DNA from: Chloroflexota bacterium
GTDB lineage: Bacteria > Chloroflexota > JAJPGV01
Assembly (NCBI GenBank): GCA_021325635.1
Contig: JAJPGV010000034.1
Coordinates: 248,745-312,744, forward strand
Length of the DNA: 64,000 bases
Direction: 5' to 3'
Under the pieces are notes generated by a model. It made no database searches. It was not told the DNA's origin and worked only from the letters and a program-made list of their open reading frames with translations. Both the position numbers and the translations under genes were made by a program. Within the stretch, counting starts at the first letter, position 1; each line of letters begins with the position of its first letter. Positions 35,336 through 45,959 of this stretch are shown one piece after another.

Positions 35336-37297
35336 ATGAGTGCCCCTAGTTACCCGGCGCGCGGCCGCCAGCCGGACGAGATCGACGCAGCTATCGACGG
35401 GATCTTCGCCAAGCTAGGCCGGAACTGGAAATGGATCGTCTTCTGGCTGTTGGCGCTGGGCGTCGTGGTGTTTTACATCATGCCCAACTGGAAAGTAGTG
35501 CAGGGTCCCCTGCTCGTTATCCTGCAGCTGCTCTTCCAGCTGGTCTTTGCCGCCTTCTTCCTCATCATCCAGTTCGGCGCGCTGTTCTGGTTCCTGGGAC
35601 GCGGCCGGGTCTACTGGATCGAACCGGGTGAGTCCGGCATCTACTTCAAGGACTACAAAGGCAATCCGTCGGTCGTGGAAGTCGCCCACCGCACGGTGAC
35701 CCTGGTGCGCGGCGTCAAGGGCTTTAAGGAGATGGGCGGCGAGGTCTCACGCGGCCTGCTGCTGGTCGGCCCTCCGGGAACCGGAAAGTCGTACCTGGCC
35801 CAAGCCATCTCGGCTGAGGCCGGCGTGCCCTACTGCTACGCCTCGGCGCCTAGCTTCCAGAACATGTTCTTCGGTGTCGGCAACCTGCGGGTCATGATGC
35901 TGTACAACAAGGCCCGCAAAAAGGCGCGGAAGTACGGCGCCTGCATCCTGTTCATCGACGAGATCGATGCCCTGGGCGCTTCGCGCGGCGGCATGGGCGG
36001 CGGCATGGGTATGGGCGCTGGCATGGGCGGCCTCTTTGGCGGTGGCGGCGCGGGCATGCTCAACGAGCTGCTGCTGCAGATGGACCCGCCGAACATCGAA
36101 ACCGGCACCATCAAGAAGTTCCTGCGCAAGATTGGCCTGCGGCGCGGCAAGGCAGTGAATCCGCCCGTCCTGACCATCGGCGCAACCAACCTGCCGGACG
36201 TGCTCGATCCGGCGCTGCTGCGGCCCGGACGGTTCGACCGCCAGATCCGCATCGACAACCCGGACCTCGATGGCCGGAAGGAGATCATCGAGTATTACCT
36301 GAACAAGGTGAAGCATGTGCCGGAAATGCCCATCGAGAAGATGGCCAACGACACCATCGGCTACACGCCGGTGGCCATCCGGTACGTCATCAATGAAGCC
36401 GTGGTCAACGCCCATTTCAACGGCAAAGAGGTTATCGACTACAAAGACTTCACCCGTGCCCGTGAGTATCACGAGTGGGGCCTGCGACAGCCTATCAAGA
36501 GCATGAGCATCGAAGAGAAGCGGCGCATCGCCTATCACGAGACCGGCCATGCCTTTGCCCAGATCAAGCTCGAGCCGTCCGAACGGCTGTCCAAGGTGAC
36601 CATCATCCGGCACGGCTCGGCGCTCGGCCTGTCAGCTGCCAAGCCGCTGGAAGAGCAGCATCTGCGGACTAAGGAGCAGCTGCTGGCGGACATCCAGATC
36701 TCGCTGGCCAGCAAAGCCGCCGAGCGGATCTTCCTCTCGACCGAGACCACCGGCATGGGCGGTGACCTGCCCGCCGCCACCCGAACCGCCGCCTACTACC
36801 TGGGCATGTGCGGCATGGGCGGCAGTCTGTACGCGCCGATGGCCTTTGGGCAGTGGCAGCCGGACGGTGAGCTGAAACACCAGATCGAGGTCCTGTTAGA
36901 CGAGCAGTACAAGAAGGTCAAGACCTTGCTCGAAGCGAACCGCGACACAGTCACGGCCATCGCGGAAGCGCTGCTCGTACGCGAGGAGCTCGACGGGGAT
37001 GACGTGCTGGAGATCGTTCGGGAAGTCGAGGAGCGAGTTGCCCGCCGAGCGGCGGAAGCGCGCGAAGCCGTCCCTGCGCTGGCCGGCAGCGCTGAGATGA
37101 GCTCCGGTGAAGGCAACGGCCACGCTTCGGGCAACGGGTACGGCTCGCCCAGCTATGGCGGAAACGGACATTCGACCGAAGGAAATGGACAGTCGACAGA
37201 AGGGAACGGCCACTCAACCTACGGCGGCGGCGGCTCGCTTGAGGGCAACGGTCACGCTGGAGACGGCGGATACTATCCTGGGGCTACCCTCGGTTGA
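35336..37297 (+). CDS. FtsH-like AAA+ zinc metalloprotease with unusual insert and tail
   Basis: 653 residues. Two membrane helices (about 32-95) precede the AAA+ module: Walker A GPPGTGKS (about 145), Walker B CILFIDEIDALG and the second region of homology with PALLRPGRFDRQIR. The M41 peptidase has HETGH (about 401) and the third zinc ligand Asp in GMGGDLPAATR. After Walker B a Gly/Met-rich stretch (about 218-242) is inserted where FtsH has a short loop. The last ~65 residues consist of repeats of the type GNGHSTEG. The membrane topology is FtsH-like, so it should extract and degrade membrane proteins. Start and stop overlap closely with neighbours, giving a three-gene operon. Confidence 0.88.
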   Translation: MSAPSYPARGRQPDEIDAAIDGIFAKLGRNWKWIVFWLLALGVVVFYIMPNWKVVQGPLLVILQLLFQLVFAAFFLIIQFGALFWFLGRGRVYWIEPGESGIYFKDYKGNPSVVEVAHRTVTLVRGVKGFKEMGGEVSRGLLLVGPPGTGKSYLAQAISAEAGVPYCYASAPSFQNMFFGVGNLRVMMLYNKARKKARKYGACILFIDEIDALGASRGGMGGGMGMGAGMGGLFGGGGAGMLNELLLQMDPPNIETGTIKKFLRKIGLRRGKAVNPPVLTIGATNLPDVLDPALLRPGRFDRQIRIDNPDLDGRKEIIEYYLNKVKHVPEMPIEKMANDTIGYTPVAIRYVINEAVVNAHFNGKEVIDYKDFTRAREYHEWGLRQPIKSMSIEEKRRIAYHETGHAFAQIKLEPSERLSKVTIIRHGSALGLSAAKPLEEQHLRTKEQLLADIQISLASKAAERIFLSTETTGMGGDLPAATRTAAYYLGMCGMGGSLYAPMAFGQWQPDGELKHQIEVLLDEQYKKVKTLLEANRDTVTAIAEALLVREELDGDDVLEIVREVEERVARRAAEAREAVPALAGSAEMSSGEGNGHASGNGYGSPSYGGNGHSTEGNGQSTEGNGHSTYGGGGSLEGNGHAGDGGYYPGATLG

Positions 37298-38987: not shown

Positions 38988-39689
38988 TCAACGGCGCCAC
39001 CAGCGGACGCTGTAGGCTGCAGCCACCAATGCTATCGCCAGCAGGCCCAGCTCGGTTGCAAGCACCGGCCAATCGATTGATGGACTGAAGGCAGCGCCCG
39101 TCGACGCGGCAGGCGGCGAAGCGCCCGTGCCGGCGCCAATGGCGGGCGGGGCTGGTTCAGCGGCAGGCGCAGCCGGAGCGGGGGTGTTCGTTCCAGGTCC
39201 GACGCCCACCGCTCGTGCGCTGGCGGCGGCAGGTTGTGCCGCCGCGGCAGGAGCTCCACTACTTGCCGCCCGCGCCGCAGCGAGCGGAGGGCCCGAGGCG
39301 GCTGCAGCCTGCGGCCGAATCTCGCTGCTCCTGAAAACGGAAATGGCGGCCGCCTGGCGCGGCAGCCCCCGAACGGCCAGGTTCACACTCAGCGCCACAA
39401 ACAGCAGGCTCGCGGCAATTGAGGACACTGCTCGCAACAATCCGCCTGGAGTCCCGCTCAGCGCAGCCGGCTTGATGGCGCGGGGCCCGATGACGAACGA
39501 GCGCGGCGCCGGCCTGGCCGGCAGGCTGCCGAGAGCGGCCGTCAGATTTCGCAGCTCATCCAGCTGCAGCCGGCATTGCGGACACTCTCGCACGTGCCCC
39601 TCGACGGCCTGGCGCTCGGCTATGGTGACCTGGTCGTCGAGATAGGGCGACAGCAGGTCGGAGACGTGTTCCAGCTTCTTATCCCCCAC
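38988..39689 (-). CDS. Zinc-finger anti-sigma factor
   Basis: 233 residues. LLSPYLDDQVTIAERQAVEGHVRECPQC contains the HxxxCxxC zinc site of anti-sigma domains at about 29-36. A membrane helix (SIAASLLFVALSVNLAV, about 90-106) and an Ala/Pro-rich outside region follow, with a second helix at the end (ATELGLLAIALVAAAYSV). It overlaps the sigma gene by 11 bases and should hold that sigma inactive at the membrane until a signal releases it. Confidence 0.85.
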   Translation of the reverse strand: MGDKKLEHVSDLLSPYLDDQVTIAERQAVEGHVRECPQCRLQLDELRNLTAALGSLPARPAPRSFVIGPRAIKPAALSGTPGGLLRAVSSIAASLLFVALSVNLAVRGLPRQAAAISVFRSSEIRPQAAAASGPPLAAARAASSGAPAAAAQPAAASARAVGVGPGTNTPAPAAPAAEPAPPAIGAGTGASPPAASTGAAFSPSIDWPVLATELGLLAIALVAAAYSVRWWRR

Positions 39690-40239
39690 TCTTCAGACGG
39701 AGATCTTCCGGCAGAAGTTCCCTGAGCCGCGCCCTGGCCCGGCTCAGTCGCGACTTCACCGTGCCGAGGCTCACCTCCATGGCGCGGGACGCCTCGTCGT
39801 AATCGAGACCCTGAACGTCAACCAGGAGCACGCACAGGCGCTGCTCTGGCGGCAGCTTCAGGATGGCCGCTTCCAGCGTCTTGACCACTTCGGCGCTCAA
39901 GACGACCGCGTCGGGTTGAGGATCCGGATCGGCAAAGGGCGCATCCTCGTCGAGCCAATCTGTGGGATGGCGCTGCCGGCCCCTCATCTGGTCGTAGCAC
40001 TGATTGGCCGCGATACGCAGCATCCACGCCCTGAATGACCCTCCCTTGAAGCCCTTGACCGACCGATAGGCGGCGAAGAAGGTCTCCTGGGTGGCATCCT
40101 CCGCTGCCGTCGTGCTGCCGAGCATCCGCAGGCACACGTTGAACACGCCCTGCTGGTGCAGCTCGACCAGCTGATTGAAGGCGGCCAGGCTCCCAGCGCA
40201 GGCCGCCGCGGTCAATTGATCTTCGGAAGATGGAACCAA
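39679..40239 (-). CDS. ECF-type RNA polymerase sigma-70 factor
   Basis: 186 residues with region 2 (FNQLVELHQQGVFNVCLRML, EDATQETFFAAYRSVKGFKG, FRAWMLRIAANQCYDQMRGR) and region 4 (LPPEQRLCVLLVDVQGLDYDEASRAMEVSLGTVKSRLSRAR shortened here to its key helix-turn-helix LGTVKSRLSRAR). No region 3, as in extracytoplasmic-function sigma factors. The anti-sigma gene follows in the same operon. The divergent lipoprotein gene 52 bases away could be one of its targets. Confidence 0.92.
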   Translation of the reverse strand: MVPSSEDQLTAAACAGSLAAFNQLVELHQQGVFNVCLRMLGSTTAAEDATQETFFAAYRSVKGFKGGSFRAWMLRIAANQCYDQMRGRQRHPTDWLDEDAPFADPDPQPDAVVLSAEVVKTLEAAILKLPPEQRLCVLLVDVQGLDYDEASRAMEVSLGTVKSRLSRARARLRELLPEDLRLKSGG

Positions 40240-40291
40240 ATCCTCGCGCTCGCCGTCGTTAGGGTATCAGCGCCTGAAAGGAGCACTCGCA

Positions 40292-41257
40292 ATGAAGCAC
40301 CGACCCGCGGCCGTCGTCTCTCTGGCACTCGGATCCCTGGCCATCCTGACCGCGTGTGGTTCTCCTCGCCCAGCCTCAATTCCGGCCAACGGTGGCGTTG
40401 CCGCCGCCGCCAGCACCACCGCGATTGGCGAATCCGCCCGAACGGCGCAGCCCGCCATCGCGGCAGCATCCGGGCCACCTACCCAGGCAGCACAGCCCGG
40501 TTCGGGGCCAAGCTCTTCGCAGGGAGCGGCCGGGCTGCCTGTTCCACCGGTCACCCGGATGGTCATCAAGAACGGCAGCCTGAGCATCGCCGTCATCGAC
40601 GTCGAGAACAGCCTGGGACAAGTCGATCAGATCGTCCGAGCGGAACAAGGCGTCATCGCCTCGCAGACCATCCGGACGCAGGACGACAAGACCTTCGCCA
40701 CACTCACGCTCCAGGTGCCTCCGGACAACTTCGAGGACACGCTGGCCCGTCTGCGAGACGTTCGAGCGCCGGGCAGCAGGGTCATCGGCGACTCCGTGAA
40801 CAGCCAGGACGTCACCGATCAGTACGTCGATCTGGAGGCGCAGCACCGTAACCTCCAGGCAACTCGCGACGCTTACCAGAAGCTGCTCGATAGGGCCACC
40901 TCGGTAGCCGACATCATCACGCTGACGCGCGAAGTCAACAACATCCAGACTCAGATGGATCAGATCGAAGGCCGCCAGCGAATCATCAGCCGGCAGTCGG
41001 CCATTTCGACCATCACCCTGGCCCTGTCCCCGTTGGGCGCCACTCCCGCACCCGGACCTCGGCCCCTGCCCCTGCCGGCGGAAGCGGCTCGCCAGGCCTG
41101 GGCGGCGCTCGTTACCGCCCTCCAGGGTTTGTCAGTTGTCCTGATCTGGATGGCAGTGCTGCTGCCGCTCCCGGCGGCGGCCATCTGGCTGGGATGGACG
41201 CTGTTCAGTCGAGTCAGCCAGCGGGCGCATCACACCGCCGGCAGCACCACGAACTGA
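40292..41257 (+). CDS. DUF4349 lipoprotein
   Basis: 321 residues. A signal peptide ends in the lipobox LTACG (Cys about 22) with an Ala/Ser-rich linker to about 85. RMVIKNGSLSIAVIDVENSL starts the DUF4349 domain. A coiled coil (about 180-240: LEAQHRNLQATRDAYQKLL, NNIQTQMDQIEGRQRI) and a C-terminal membrane helix (SVVLIWMAVLLPLPAAAIWL) follow. A GGAG lies 8 bases before ATG 40292. The domain's job is unknown. It is divergent from the ECF sigma operon and overlaps the end of the convergent Rad50-like gene by 28 bases. Confidence 0.85.
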   Translation: MKHRPAAVVSLALGSLAILTACGSPRPASIPANGGVAAAASTTAIGESARTAQPAIAAASGPPTQAAQPGSGPSSSQGAAGLPVPPVTRMVIKNGSLSIAVIDVENSLGQVDQIVRAEQGVIASQTIRTQDDKTFATLTLQVPPDNFEDTLARLRDVRAPGSRVIGDSVNSQDVTDQYVDLEAQHRNLQATRDAYQKLLDRATSVADIITLTREVNNIQTQMDQIEGRQRIISRQSAISTITLALSPLGATPAPGPRPLPLPAEAARQAWAALVTALQGLSVVLIWMAVLLPLPAAAIWLGWTLFSRVSQRAHHTAGSTTN

Positions 41258-43884
41258 TCGAAATCGGACAGTGGAGCCAGGCGACGGCCGAGCGCCGTCG
41301 CCTGGCTCCACCCGTCCAGACCGCTTACAAAAACACATCGCACTTGGCTGGCATTGCGAACCAGGGCAAGTCGAAGCGCCAGCACGAGCGCCGCCGCTTC
41401 CGGCCCGGCCAGGTCCTCTGCCGGCCGAAATATGCCTGTCTTCGACAGCCCCGGGGCGGCGTCCCAGGCCCAGGCCAGCTTGGCGTCGGATTCCGGCAGC
41501 AGCGCGCGAAGATAGCCAGTCCCAACCTCCGCCACCCGGCTTCGGAGCAGCTCACCCAGCTTACGCCCGCCCTCGTCGACGGCCGATCGTGCTTGCGACA
41601 GCAGAGCCGTGGCGCGCTCATGACGTGCGACGTCCCGGCGTCGCTGTTCCAGCCGTTCGCGATTTTCCTCGGCCGTGCTGAGCTTCTCGCGCGCCTGGTC
41701 GTACGCCGCCTTGCAGCGCTCCACTACGACCTCGGTATCTGCCGACCGGGCCCGCAGCGAGATCACTTCCAGCGGCGCAGCGGACAGCTCCCGGATTGCC
41801 TCGCACAGGCCGGTCTCGCGAGCTTCCCACTCCTCCACCAAACGCATCTGCGCCTGGATCTGCGACTGGCAGTCGAGGAGTTGGTCCGGGGCTTCGGCGG
41901 TGATCTCGAACAGCCCCCGCTGGGTCAAATAGGCGTCGTACCCAAGCTGGGTCTCATCCCTCTTATGCTCGCTTGCACGCAGACTCGCCTCCGCTTCGGC
42001 CAGAACTGACAATCGCGACGCCAGCTCCGTGTGGCGATCATCGAGCTCCTGTTTGGCTCGCTGAAGCTGACGGATCTCTGACTCGACCGTTTCTTTCCGG
42101 GCCACCAGGCTCAGCGCCGCCAGCCGCTGCGAGCGCGGCTCGCCCAGCCCGGCGATCTCCTGCCGCAGGTTACTCACCCGCGCGGGGCCGTCGGCGCATT
42201 CCTGCTGGTGCTTGAGCAGGAGATCGTATGCCTGCTTGAGCTGATTGATCTGCTCGCGCAGCTGCTTGCGGTGCTGCTTCAGCGCAGGCAGGCCACCGAG
42301 CTTGAACTCGTTCTTCCGAACGGCCTCGAGCTCCTGCTGCAGCTGGTGGATGTTCGATCTCAGCACGTTGACCTGCTGGGCAGCGTCGGCCAGCCTGCGA
42401 CTCTCGTTCTGCCAATCTCGCACGAGCCGCTCCAGGGCGTCCAGATGGCGGTCCAGAGCCTCCCGCAGGTGCCCAGCCAGGGTCCGTTCGGCCGCCTGCA
42501 CAGCGCCGCCTGGCCCGAGCGGAGAGGCCGAGAGCCGCTCCGTGGCCGAGATCCCCCGTCTCAGCTCGTCCAGCTGCCCGCTCGTCACTCGAATGGCGCC
42601 GTCGAGAAAATGGATCTGGTCAACCTGGCGGGAGGCGTCGCGCAGCTGGCCAAACGCTGTCTCCAGCGCCTGCTCCAGCTTCTTAAGGCTCGCCTGCTGT
42701 GCACCGAGCGCTTCGAGATCGACTATCTGGCGCTCGACCTCCGCGGCCAGCACTTCCAGGCGCTTGGCATCCGCCAGGTTTTCCTGGACCTGGCGGTGGA
42801 TGAAATCGAGCCGCAGACTTCTCTCCTGCGCCAGCGCCAGCTGCTGCTCCAGCTGCTGCTGCTTGTGCACCTGCTCGGCGAGCTCCACGGCTTCGCGCTC
42901 GGCCGCAGCGATGCGATCGTGATCTGCTTGAAGATGAGCCTCACCACGCTGAGCCGCGACCTGCTCGGACGTAACCGCGCTCAGCTCCCCACGGAGCGCC
43001 TCCACCTCAGCAAGCTGAGCGCGAAGCCTGGCGATCTCGCCGCACGCCGCCTGGAAGTCGGTCCAGTCCTGCTGATGCTCGGCCATGCGCGTCTGCGCCT
43101 GCTCCCGCAAGCTGAGGGCGGCCTGCCAGCGCTCGAGCCTGACCTCTAGCGCGGCCGCCATTCGCCGCCCAGCCTGGAGCTCCTCGCGCACTCGGTCGAG
43201 ATCCAATGACAGCGCGGCGTGCCGCTCGGCACGTTCTTGCGCAAGGTCGAGCTGGCGCGACAGGCCAGACAGCTGCTCCTCGGCTTCGAGAAGCCGTCCC
43301 TGAGCCACATCGTGCTCACGTCGAAAGTCGTCGAACAGACTATCCTGGCCCTCGAGCAGACGCGCTTCCGCGGTCAGCTCGTGCCAGTGGCGCTCCATCG
43401 TCTCGCGCACGGCGGAAACGGAGCGCAGTCCCTTGGGATAGCGGTCCATCAGCAGCAGATCCGAGAAGCGGCGATCTCGCCAGCCGCGCTCGGACGTCAG
43501 CAGCCCCAGGCTTGCCGGAATCGAGAAGCACAGCAGGTCGCGGAACAGCCTGCTCAGGGAAACGTCGTCATCGACCTGGAAATGGCGGCGCAGCCACAGG
43601 CCAGCGTCTTCAGGTCCAAACGCAGCCTGCCAGCCGGTCTCGGGATCGACGATCTGCCAGTGCTGGGCGACGTCGACTGCGCGCTGAGCCACGTATGGAC
43701 GCCGATCCAGCGGCGATTCGAACTCGATCTCGACCTGCCCGGCAGAGCCCAAGCCACGCGATGGAACGTCGAATAGCGCATACCCTACCGCGGCCAGCAA
43801 CTCACGCTCGCCCGCCGGCAGCAGCGACACACCATCGGCCAGCTGATGCCGCCCGCCAGATGGCGTGCTGATGACGCGAAGCAT
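41230..43884 (-). CDS. Rad50/SbcC-like coiled-coil protein with degenerate ATPase motifs
   Basis: About 884 residues from ATG 43884, 8 bases after the Mre11-like stop. Residues ~190-780 are almost all coiled coil, as in SbcC. The head keeps the general pattern (LLAAVGYALFDVPSRG, where SbcC has its P-loop helix), but the P-loop itself reads LLPAGERE with no GK(S/T). The signature position reads DLAGPEAAALVLALRLAL in place of LSGGE, and the Walker B region reads VRCVFVSGLDGWSQ without the DE pair. No CxxC zinc hook is visible. ATP binding is therefore doubtful. Gene order with an Mre11-like partner is that of sbcD-sbcC, so a structural, DNA-bridging or regulatory complex is a possibility. Confidence 0.75.
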   Translation of the reverse strand: MLRVISTPSGGRHQLADGVSLLPAGERELLAAVGYALFDVPSRGLGSAGQVEIEFESPLDRRPYVAQRAVDVAQHWQIVDPETGWQAAFGPEDAGLWLRRHFQVDDDVSLSRLFRDLLCFSIPASLGLLTSERGWRDRRFSDLLLMDRYPKGLRSVSAVRETMERHWHELTAEARLLEGQDSLFDDFRREHDVAQGRLLEAEEQLSGLSRQLDLAQERAERHAALSLDLDRVREELQAGRRMAAALEVRLERWQAALSLREQAQTRMAEHQQDWTDFQAACGEIARLRAQLAEVEALRGELSAVTSEQVAAQRGEAHLQADHDRIAAAEREAVELAEQVHKQQQLEQQLALAQERSLRLDFIHRQVQENLADAKRLEVLAAEVERQIVDLEALGAQQASLKKLEQALETAFGQLRDASRQVDQIHFLDGAIRVTSGQLDELRRGISATERLSASPLGPGGAVQAAERTLAGHLREALDRHLDALERLVRDWQNESRRLADAAQQVNVLRSNIHQLQQELEAVRKNEFKLGGLPALKQHRKQLREQINQLKQAYDLLLKHQQECADGPARVSNLRQEIAGLGEPRSQRLAALSLVARKETVESEIRQLQRAKQELDDRHTELASRLSVLAEAEASLRASEHKRDETQLGYDAYLTQRGLFEITAEAPDQLLDCQSQIQAQMRLVEEWEARETGLCEAIRELSAAPLEVISLRARSADTEVVVERCKAAYDQAREKLSTAEENRERLEQRRRDVARHERATALLSQARSAVDEGGRKLGELLRSRVAEVGTGYLRALLPESDAKLAWAWDAAPGLSKTGIFRPAEDLAGPEAAALVLALRLALVRNASQVRCVFVSGLDGWSQATALGRRLAPLSDFDQFVVLPAV
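41271..41311. repeat. 18-bp perfect inverted repeat inside the Rad50-like 3' end
   Basis: GTGGAGCCAGGCGACGGC (41271-41288) pairs without mismatch with 41294-41311, loop CGAGC. It lies 13 bases past the stop of the convergent DUF4349 gene and could terminate that transcript, although no T-run follows. It is at the same time coding sequence for the last residues of the Rad50-like protein. Confidence 0.75.
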
Positions 43885-43892
43885 TAGTCCCG

Positions 43893-44873
43893 TCAGCCTC
43901 GAGCCGCCGCTTCCAGCAAGCGCACTTCGAGTTGCCCGATGTCTCCACCACCCCACACCGATTCCGTCACCAGGCGGATGAGGTCGCGCTTCAGCGCCCG
44001 CTCTGCCGGTGTGCCTGTCCCCGAAGTCGCGATCTCGTCGAACAGGCGTTCCTCGTCACTATGCCGTGGCGCGCCCACCCGCGGCGCTGGCGGCCACCGA
44101 AGGGAAATTGCCTCGGGATAAGCCACATAACGAGCCGCGTGCTTCGGCTGAACGACCGTATCGACTGACACATGGAAGAAGCCGCCGGGGCCTGGATTGT
44201 AGACCCACCCTTCGGCGTCGTAGGTTGACTGACAGCTGCCCAGGGCCACGTAATCGACATGGCGTCTGAGCAGCAGCAGATCGCCATACGAGAGCTTGGG
44301 GCCGACCTCTTCGGAAAAGTGCTCGAGCTGCGCGTGCAGGAGAACCATCCGGAAGTCCGTTTCGCGGTTATCGAGGGCCACGATGGCATCGGCTAGCGCC
44401 GGCAGGAGCACTCCGGTCATAGCTCCGTAGTACGGCATGCCGAACAGTCGAGATCGGCCCAGGTCGAAGAACGATCCACCCAACTCGCGCCGAGTCCACC
44501 GCTCCAGAGCCATATCGCGCGCCCGGATCTGCGGTGCCAGCAGTACGACCAGCCCCTCATCGGACAGCATCTCGTACCAGGTCAGCTCACCGCCCGGACG
44601 GACAACCTCATGCCGACCCCGAATGGCGATGGCCGCCACGCCCTTCTCCGCCAGCCTGGACAAACCTCGCAGCGCCACCTGGAATGCCGCGGGATCGACC
44701 TGCGGCGAGTCGAACAGGTCTCCGGCAAAGACCACGAAGGAGACGCGCTGCTCCAGCGCGTAGTCGATGACGAAGCGGAACTGCTTACCGAGCTGCTCGG
44801 CAGATCCCCGAGGATCCGCCGGGTCATGGTAGCCCAGCCTGACGTCCGCCAGGTGGAGAAAGCTGGTTCGCAT
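43893..44873 (-). CDS. Mre11/SbcD-like phosphoesterase-fold protein with missing catalytic residues
   Basis: 326 residues. The overall order of calcineurin-like motifs is clear but most metal ligands are changed. FLHLADVRLGY has Arg where DxH is expected, GDLFDS is kept, IRGRHEV replaces GNHD/E, LLHAQLE keeps a His, and LGSCQSTY replaces GHxH, losing both His residues. So nuclease activity is unlikely. The start MRTSFLHLAD is normal. It is followed at 8 bases by the Rad50-like gene, and both partners are degenerate in parallel, which argues for a maintained non-catalytic complex and against random decay; both frames are long and intact. Confidence 0.75.
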   Translation of the reverse strand: MRTSFLHLADVRLGYHDPADPRGSAEQLGKQFRFVIDYALEQRVSFVVFAGDLFDSPQVDPAAFQVALRGLSRLAEKGVAAIAIRGRHEVVRPGGELTWYEMLSDEGLVVLLAPQIRARDMALERWTRRELGGSFFDLGRSRLFGMPYYGAMTGVLLPALADAIVALDNRETDFRMVLLHAQLEHFSEEVGPKLSYGDLLLLRRHVDYVALGSCQSTYDAEGWVYNPGPGGFFHVSVDTVVQPKHAARYVAYPEAISLRWPPAPRVGAPRHSDEERLFDEIATSGTGTPAERALKRDLIRLVTESVWGGGDIGQLEVRLLEAAARG

Positions 44874-44930: not shown

Positions 44931-45959
44931 ATGGAGAGCAGCGCACGGCGGCGAGGCGTGAGCGGCCGCACGCTTACGCTGCTCGTGCTCGGATTGGCAC
45001 TGGCTGTCGGGTTGAGCCTGACCAGCCGGCTGGCACATACAGCCACGATGCCCAACGTCGGTCTGCCTCCGTCAAACAGCAAGATCGTCCCCAAGCTAGC
45101 CATCTACGACCCACAGGTCGAAGTGACGCGCCAGTACCTCCAGGACCTGGTGCGGCTCGACTATTCAGCGGCGTATGCGCTGCTCGCGCCGTCGATCCGC
45201 GGCACGCTCACAGCCGATCGGTTCGCAGCCGATCGCAGGGCGGAAGGCGTGCTGGGACAGCCGGCGGTCTGGGCCGACGATGAGACGAGCGTTCGCGCCG
45301 AATACGTCCTCGGGAAACCGGACGGGAGCAGGGTCAGCCGGCGGCATCGCTTCCTGCTAGCCAGCGACCAGGGCGAATGGCGGATAGTGGGCGAGACAGC
45401 CATCCCCGATGGCCAAAGTCCGGCGCCTAACCTGCAGGCAGCGATGAATGGCTACGTCTTGCAGCAGGCAGGGAAGGTCTGGGCGAACACCGCGGAGCTC
45501 CTCCGACAGGAGGCATTCGAGAGCGGGCAGCTACTGCTGTTCAGCTACATCGAGCCGCGCCCGCCGGGCGTGCTGACTCAGGAGCGCATCGCCATCCTGA
45601 CGTACTTCGTCAACGGACCCGACGGCTGGGAATACCAGGGCGGCGGAACCGTTGGCCCGCCAGCCGCGATGGGAGTAGCCGACGTCGCCATGGGCTTCAC
45701 GGCGTTCGGGCCAGATCGGCGCTACACCGCCTACTTCGGGGTCGTCGAGAACAAGAACGCCACGAGCCTAGCGTTCCAAGAGCCGAATGGCGTCCGGCAC
45801 AGGCAGAGCCTCACGGGCGAATCGACCATCCTCTATGTGAACGAGAGCAACCCGTACGAGGACCCTCCCCTGGAGCAGCCCTTCAAATCCATCGAGGTCA
45901 AGGACGCCCTGGGCAACACCATGCGCAGCAACCCACCCCTGCCGCCTACAGCTTCCTGA
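44931..45959 (+). CDS. Membrane-anchored or secreted protein, unrecognised
   Basis: 342 residues. An N-terminal helix (LTLLVLGLALAVGLSLTS, about 15-33) acts as a signal anchor or signal peptide. VEVTRQYLQDLVRLDYSAAY and the following ~90 residues resemble NTF2-like domains. The second half (from about 190) is beta-rich and without a family I recognise. The 3' end overlaps the convergent peroxiredoxin gene by 14 bases. Function unknown. Confidence 0.6.
   Translation: MESSARRRGVSGRTLTLLVLGLALAVGLSLTSRLAHTATMPNVGLPPSNSKIVPKLAIYDPQVEVTRQYLQDLVRLDYSAAYALLAPSIRGTLTADRFAADRRAEGVLGQPAVWADDETSVRAEYVLGKPDGSRVSRRHRFLLASDQGEWRIVGETAIPDGQSPAPNLQAAMNGYVLQQAGKVWANTAELLRQEAFESGQLLLFSYIEPRPPGVLTQERIAILTYFVNGPDGWEYQGGGTVGPPAAMGVADVAMGFTAFGPDRRYTAYFGVVENKNATSLAFQEPNGVRHRQSLTGESTILYVNESNPYEDPPLEQPFKSIEVKDALGNTMRSNPPLPPTAS

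Follow-up and report, generated by a model that had tools for sequence, protein, structure and literature searches.

Two described systems are among those closest to the locus analysed here. Bacterial SbcD-SbcC has in common with it a two-gene plan of a nuclease and a rod-forming ATPase, but the Mre11-like protein of the window (the whole 64,000-nt stretch of Chloroflexota DNA that was analysed) falls well below the cut-off of the SbcD model TIGR00619 (21.9 vs 77.65 bits), and the true SbcD of the same genome is a separate protein. The archaeal-type Mre11-Rad50 of Chloroflexota (UBA6077 MAG, Thermogemmatispora, Caldilineaceae; loci L046-L061, L098, L099, L103-L249) shares with the window pair its fold, its gene order and spacing where the genes are paired, its coiled-coil rod, and many conserved structural residues. 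Unlike the window pair, it keeps its nuclease and ATPase residues, nearly always has a zinc hook, and contains the capping-domain stretch. The reading favoured here, with a probability of roughly 55%, is that the locus encodes a derived Mre11-Rad50 pair in which catalysis has been lost in both partners and which selection has kept open and folded as a maintained pseudo-nuclease/pseudo-ATPase complex.

The locus and its genomic setting

Both genes (Table 1) lie on a 427-kb contig (C50, on which the window occupies 248745-312744) of a 4.64-Mb draft genome in 63 contigs. The preliminary description had reported two long open frames at this place, and both were recovered there: together they run for 1210 codons without stop or frameshift, and their GC1/2/3 values are coding-like. 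The listed Rad50-like frame has 908 aa and begins at an upstream GTG (43956); relatives begin at the position of the ATG at 43884, and because that ATG aligns with their start it is the likely start of the gene. Eight nucleotides then separate the mre11-like stop from the rad50-like ATG, within the spacing range of the family. The likeness to SbcD-SbcC that had been described holds for gene order and coiled coil; it fails for the length of the Mre11-like protein, which at 326 aa is about 110 aa shorter than its relatives (mostly 425-470 aa).

The two genes stand by themselves. A divergent gene that matches no Pfam family starts at 44931, a DUF4349 gene converges on the Rad50-like gene and overlaps its end by 28 bases, and a scan of the locus for sigma-70-like promoters and for terminators yielded no match. 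Elsewhere in the window, the stretch 38988-41257 has an ECF sigma factor gene and a zf-HC2 anti-sigma-like gene next to a divergent DUF4349 gene, and an FtsH-like protein with AAA and M41 peptidase domains (35336-37297) has a Gly-rich insert in its AAA domain and an unusual Asn/Gly/His-rich tail.

Table 1. Features of the Mre11-like and Rad50-like genes, in window positions.
Feature	Positions	Strand	Basis or remark
Mre11/SbcD-like pseudo-nuclease gene	43893..44873	minus	326 aa, ATG start
Motif I, D10-V-R12 (relatives D-x-H)	44838..44846	minus	alignment
Motif II, G51-D52, kept	44718..44723	minus	alignment
Motif III, G-R87-H88-E (relatives GNHD/E)	44607..44618	minus	alignment
Motif IV, H180, kept	44334..44336	minus	alignment
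Motif V, G-S213-C-Q215 (relatives GHxH)	44229..44240	minus	alignment
Mre11-like C-terminal part, capping-domain stretch of the family absent	43893..44120	minus	alignment, AF2, family HMM
Rad50/SbcC-like pseudo-ATPase gene	41230..43884	minus	884 aa from ATG 43884
PAGEREL, shorter by 4 aa and with Glu for Lys, where relatives have the P-loop GxNGAGKST	43798..43818	minus	alignment
Q-loop Gln position, Ile122	43519..43521	minus	alignment
Long coiled coil, aa 148-795	41500..43443	minus	AF2 model and coiled-coil analysis
Apex SPLG (relatives zinc-hook CPxC or CP-x5-C)	42514..42525	minus	alignment
LAGPE for signature LSGGE	41398..41412	minus	alignment
VFVSGLD for Walker B/D-loop FFDEPTxxxD (shorter by 4 aa, without Asp-Glu but with the D-loop Asp)	41314..41334	minus	alignment
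C-terminus VVLPAV-stop; H-loop and last ~30 residues of relatives absent	41230..41250	minus	alignment

The same genome holds other Mre11-Rad50 pairs. A second, canonical sbcDC, whose presence the preliminary description had proposed to check, does exist: contig C24 carries SbcC and an SbcD that clears the TIGR00619 cut-off with 116.5 bits. Within C24:190000-203000 (L062, 3043-9124), the canonical SbcD and SbcC genes are preceded by a gene for a HerA/FtsK-like ATPase, so called by eye and given no NCBIfam name. A HerA-Mre11-Rad50 gene run lies on contig C25, where genes for a HerA-like ATPase, an Mre11-like and a Rad50-like protein stand in a row (C25:1-13000, L063, 1802-7845). This second Mre11-like protein has GTHD for GNHD; the rest of its motifs and the P-loop of the adjoining Rad50 look intact.

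Motifs and folds of the two proteins and their relatives

With 22.6 bits the Mre11-like protein clears the Pfam Metallophos cut-off of 21.5 bits, and it matches Mre11 chains in the PDB with an E-value of 3.3e-13. In a phmmer alignment to Mre11 of P. furiosus (1ii7), DVR stands opposite DIH, GRHE opposite GNHD, HAQ opposite HQG, and GSCQ opposite GHIH. Four of the seven metal ligands, which we take to be D, H, D, N, H, H and H, are replaced (H12R, N87R, H213S, H215Q); D10, D52 and the metal ligand H180 are kept, as is the neighbouring His88. The AF2 model (mean pLDDT 86, with most of aa 1-250 above 90 and a doubtful C-terminus) can be superimposed by VIA-align over aa 2-259 on the Mre11 of 5dny (Z 26.9, rmsd 2.4, 226 residues aligned), and on this model the protein is predicted to have the Mre11 phosphoesterase fold. 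A terminal helix-loop-helix (aa 289-325) is predicted with low to middling pLDDT; the family HMM of the Mre11 C-terminal part scores -1.9 against this C-terminus, within the range of shuffled sequences, and the view that the Rad50-binding helix-loop-helix is demonstrably kept was rejected on that score. The hydrophobic residues W99, L103 and L112 are kept: they presumably lie in or near the helix that forms the dimer in archaeal Mre11, and a literature search for the archaeal dimer residues found no confirmation.

No Pfam model recognises the Rad50-like protein, and its NCBIfam matches are weak and lie over the coiled coil; the Rad50-like partners of the Mre11 relatives nevertheless align with it along its length. 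The losses listed in the preliminary description (three metal-binding His and the Asn of GNHD in one partner; the P-loop Lys, signature LSGGE, Walker B Asp-Glu and zinc hook in the other) all withstood re-examination, as DVR, GRHE and GSCQ in the first and PAGEREL, LAGPE, VFVSGLD and SPLG in the second, and the Q-loop Gln and H-loop His, which that list did not include, are missing too. Every motif difference in the two genes is in frame. In the AF2 model of the Rad50-like protein (mean pLDDT 81) the head is split and the long coiled coil is interrupted at its apex, aa 454-460. The best Foldseek matches of this model are chains of Smc5/6, condensin and Mre11-Rad50-Nbs1, with low TM-scores that are perhaps expected for long rods.

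Relatives were drawn from a sample of 400 genomes of the phylum, of which 86 (the window's own included) match Mre11 with an E-value of at most 1e-15 and 44 match Rad50 with one of at most 1e-5. The family border is sharp in the profile search of these genomes: members reach at least about 248 bits and the next group stays at or below about 112, the one exception being a short piece of a gene that is split (G219, 101 bits). The window protein scores 276 bits there, its own row being part of the profile. Family members from this sample and 80 named loci, which came from a contig scan with two patterns (one containing a catalytic His), make up 165 loci with 147 distinct Mre11 sequences. In many members of one genome group, f17 (probably Ktedonobacteria), the Mre11 gene has no adjoining Rad50 gene (L048, L049, L105, L106, L108-L110, L117, L119, L120 and similar loci).

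All four Mre11 motifs are kept in 146 of the 147 sequences; the exception, L169, lacks its N-terminus and was for that reason left out of the column counts, whereas L166, which is truncated, was counted. Rad50 partners were picked among the neighbours by their P-loop (82 proteins, of which the 73 longer than 800 aa were used as full-length), so Walker A retention among them is by construction; the choice does not affect the counts for signature, Walker B and H-loop. Signature, DEP and H-loop are kept in all 73. At the 65 loci without a picked partner, no P-loop-less Rad50-like neighbour had been overlooked, going by protein length, motifs and the opening 60 residues. The zinc hook of the window protein is judged from the alignment to be truly lost, because 70 of the 73 full-length partners have a hook of the CPxC or CP-x5-C type; the idea that relatives also lack the hook came from a pattern seeking CxxC only and was rejected. 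The long form, CP-x5-C in place of CPxC at the Rad50 apex, occurs in many relatives (L103, L050, L052 and others).

Over the positions that we take to be the catalytic set of the two proteins, every tested column is kept in 146/146 Mre11 and 73/73 Rad50 sequences, and the window pair keeps 4/8 and 4/13, having lost 13 of 21. That the pair would be catalytically dead in both partners while its relatives are intact is well supported by these alignments. Among the family members found in the 400 genomes, it is the only dead copy. The collections searched, in which its genome is the sole representative of its class, contained no orthologue, and the nearest canonical relatives come from other classes with 40% identity or less. 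A contig scan with the window Mre11-like sequence alone found no relative, and a viral sequence scan with the Rad50-like protein found no match. A further viral scan, made with an alignment, gave 33 loci; its patterns contain catalytic motifs, and it is therefore blind to dead copies.

Selection, decay and other readings

Neutral change was simulated with a simple mutation model without indels, at equilibrium GC of 0.5, 0.6 and 0.67 (135 completed runs). The first stop appears after about 2% of residues have changed and at the latest after 11%; at 40% residue change there are 15-23 stops on average. The probability of losing 13 or more of the 21 catalytic sites at 11% neutral change is 3e-8. 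Mismatches in the Mre11 core have a mean BLOSUM score of -0.40 in the window, against -0.47 in functional pairs of like identity (2272 pairs) and -0.95 under neutrality (maximum -0.75). For the coiled coil the corresponding values are -0.67, -0.57 and -0.98, and the two Rad50 head lobes score -0.72 and -0.54 against neutral values of -0.99 and -0.92, there being just 3 and 0 functional pairs at comparable identity; replacements in the head and coiled coil of the Rad50-like protein fall between neutral and functional. Conservative replacements may in part be a legacy of the functional period. Prolines are sparse in the coiled coil, at 0.95 per 100 residues compared with a median of 1.69 in the 73 relatives and 5.35 after 40% neutral change. 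Heptad power was rejected as a discriminator: the window value (0.071) exceeds that of shuffled sequences (0.037), yet neutral simulation gives 0.052.

Because the frames are open, the Mre11-core replacements conservative and the coiled coil poor in proline compared with neutral expectation, it is well supported that selection was acting on the reading frames, on the fold of the Mre11-like protein and on the rod at the time when catalysis was lost. Marks of purifying selection are borne by the frames, by the core of the Mre11-like protein and by the coiled coil; maintenance is seen in one genome only, since the collections searched contained no orthologue. The main rival reading is slow decay, in which the pair is redundant beside SbcDC and the HerA-linked pair, selection on it is weak and fading, and its open frames are transient. 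Such redundancy does exist in this genome, the capping-domain stretch and the C-terminus of Rad50 are missing, and conserved non-catalytic columns have been lost too: 15/45 in Mre11 and 46/79 in Rad50. Loss is not significantly heavier in catalytic than in other conserved columns (Fisher p 0.30 for Mre11, 0.33 for Rad50 and 0.09 for the Mre11 core), and a loss selectively focused on catalytic residues was rejected on these values. The Rad50-like head is also extremely divergent: in trees from quick searches, where the window rows are long branches of unsure position, its branch is at saturation (5.9-10 vs 0.97 for the next longest), and the Mre11-like branch measures 2.24 vs 1.0 for the nearest row. 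Decay is nonetheless the less probable reading, as under neutral change a few percent of replacements suffice to bring stops and both genes are open throughout, with conservative changes in the Mre11 core and few prolines in the coiled coil. Of the maintained, non-catalytic complex that had been suggested earlier, the loss in both partners and long-lasting selection on the frames are well supported; a complex that still assembles, or one that regulates SbcCD, is a conjecture.

A narrower function seems improbable: the dead pair would be a specific regulator of the active SbcDC or HerA-linked pair, acting through mixed oligomers or competition for DNA ends. Active pairs do coexist with it, and among the 21 other genomes tested that have a live family copy the SbcD_C domain is found in none and an SbcD homologue stronger than E 1e-17 in only two (G088, G011). 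Yet the Mre11-like sequence is far from SbcD, and interaction with the active pairs is not supported by any result. The ATP site of ABC proteins is completed between two heads; with Walker A and signature both lost, the Rad50-like protein would form no working site with itself or with a live Rad50 head. A re-tooled enzyme, in which Asp10, Asp52, His88 and His180 join with the new Cys214 and Arg residues in another active site, is very hard to credit: the site retains two Asp and two His, but four of seven ligands are replaced, two of them by Arg, and the Rad50-like side has no remnant of Walker A or B. Least probable of all is a sequencing or assembly artefact, of which no sign was found in this draft genome; the losses are scattered, in frame, at several sites per gene and within a 427-kb contig.

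A putative complex without catalysis and its parallels

As a maintained pseudo-nuclease/pseudo-ATPase complex, with neither Mn-dependent cleavage nor an ATP-driven head cycle, the pair would act as a static, rod-like assembly. Two Rad50-like rods could be joined by an Mre11-like dimer and, doing no cutting, attach to a partner or bridge it, the partner being DNA or the active Mre11-Rad50 complexes of the genome. The Arg residues that now occupy two of the metal-ligand positions, next to Asp10 and Asp52, may replace the charge of the metal and steady an empty site. Complex formation itself is putative, since neither the capping domain nor the C-terminus of Rad50 is present and the family HMM does not recognise the Rad50-binding helices. 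Other Mre11-Rad50 pairs, acquired or already present, could have relieved the window copy: the active SbcDC and the HerA-linked pair may have taken over catalysis and so freed it. A more far-reaching form of the idea, offered tentatively, is a machine fully independent of ATP and metal, whose two partners lost catalysis together and which has been retained because it serves as a scaffold or represses the active complexes.

To our knowledge, dead Mre11 and Rad50 are known mainly as engineered mutants. The open-access literature searched contained no Mre11-Rad50 or SbcCD pseudoenzyme, and wider searches returned no natural double-dead pair among the matches listed. If both partners of a natural pair are dead, the pair would reveal what non-catalytic work, such as tethering or scaffolding, suffices to keep the genes. 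In its coiled coil the Rad50-like protein has a faint likeness to the archaea-specific SMC-related protein and other SMC-like coiled-coil proteins (NF045487; PMC9389158): it scores 31.4 of 300 bits, far under the cut-off and over the coiled coil only.

The Cdc45 route, from a RecJ-related protein to a structural replication factor, may serve as an analogy for the change proposed here. Cdc45 has lost its nuclease activity. PMC4873980 presents it as a RecJ-related structural part of the CMG helicase, and it is a precedent for a relative of a repair nuclease turned structural protein. Unlike the window pair, Cdc45 has an unrelated fold and its loss did not involve two partners; a natural double-dead Mre11-Rad50 pair would be its bacterial parallel.
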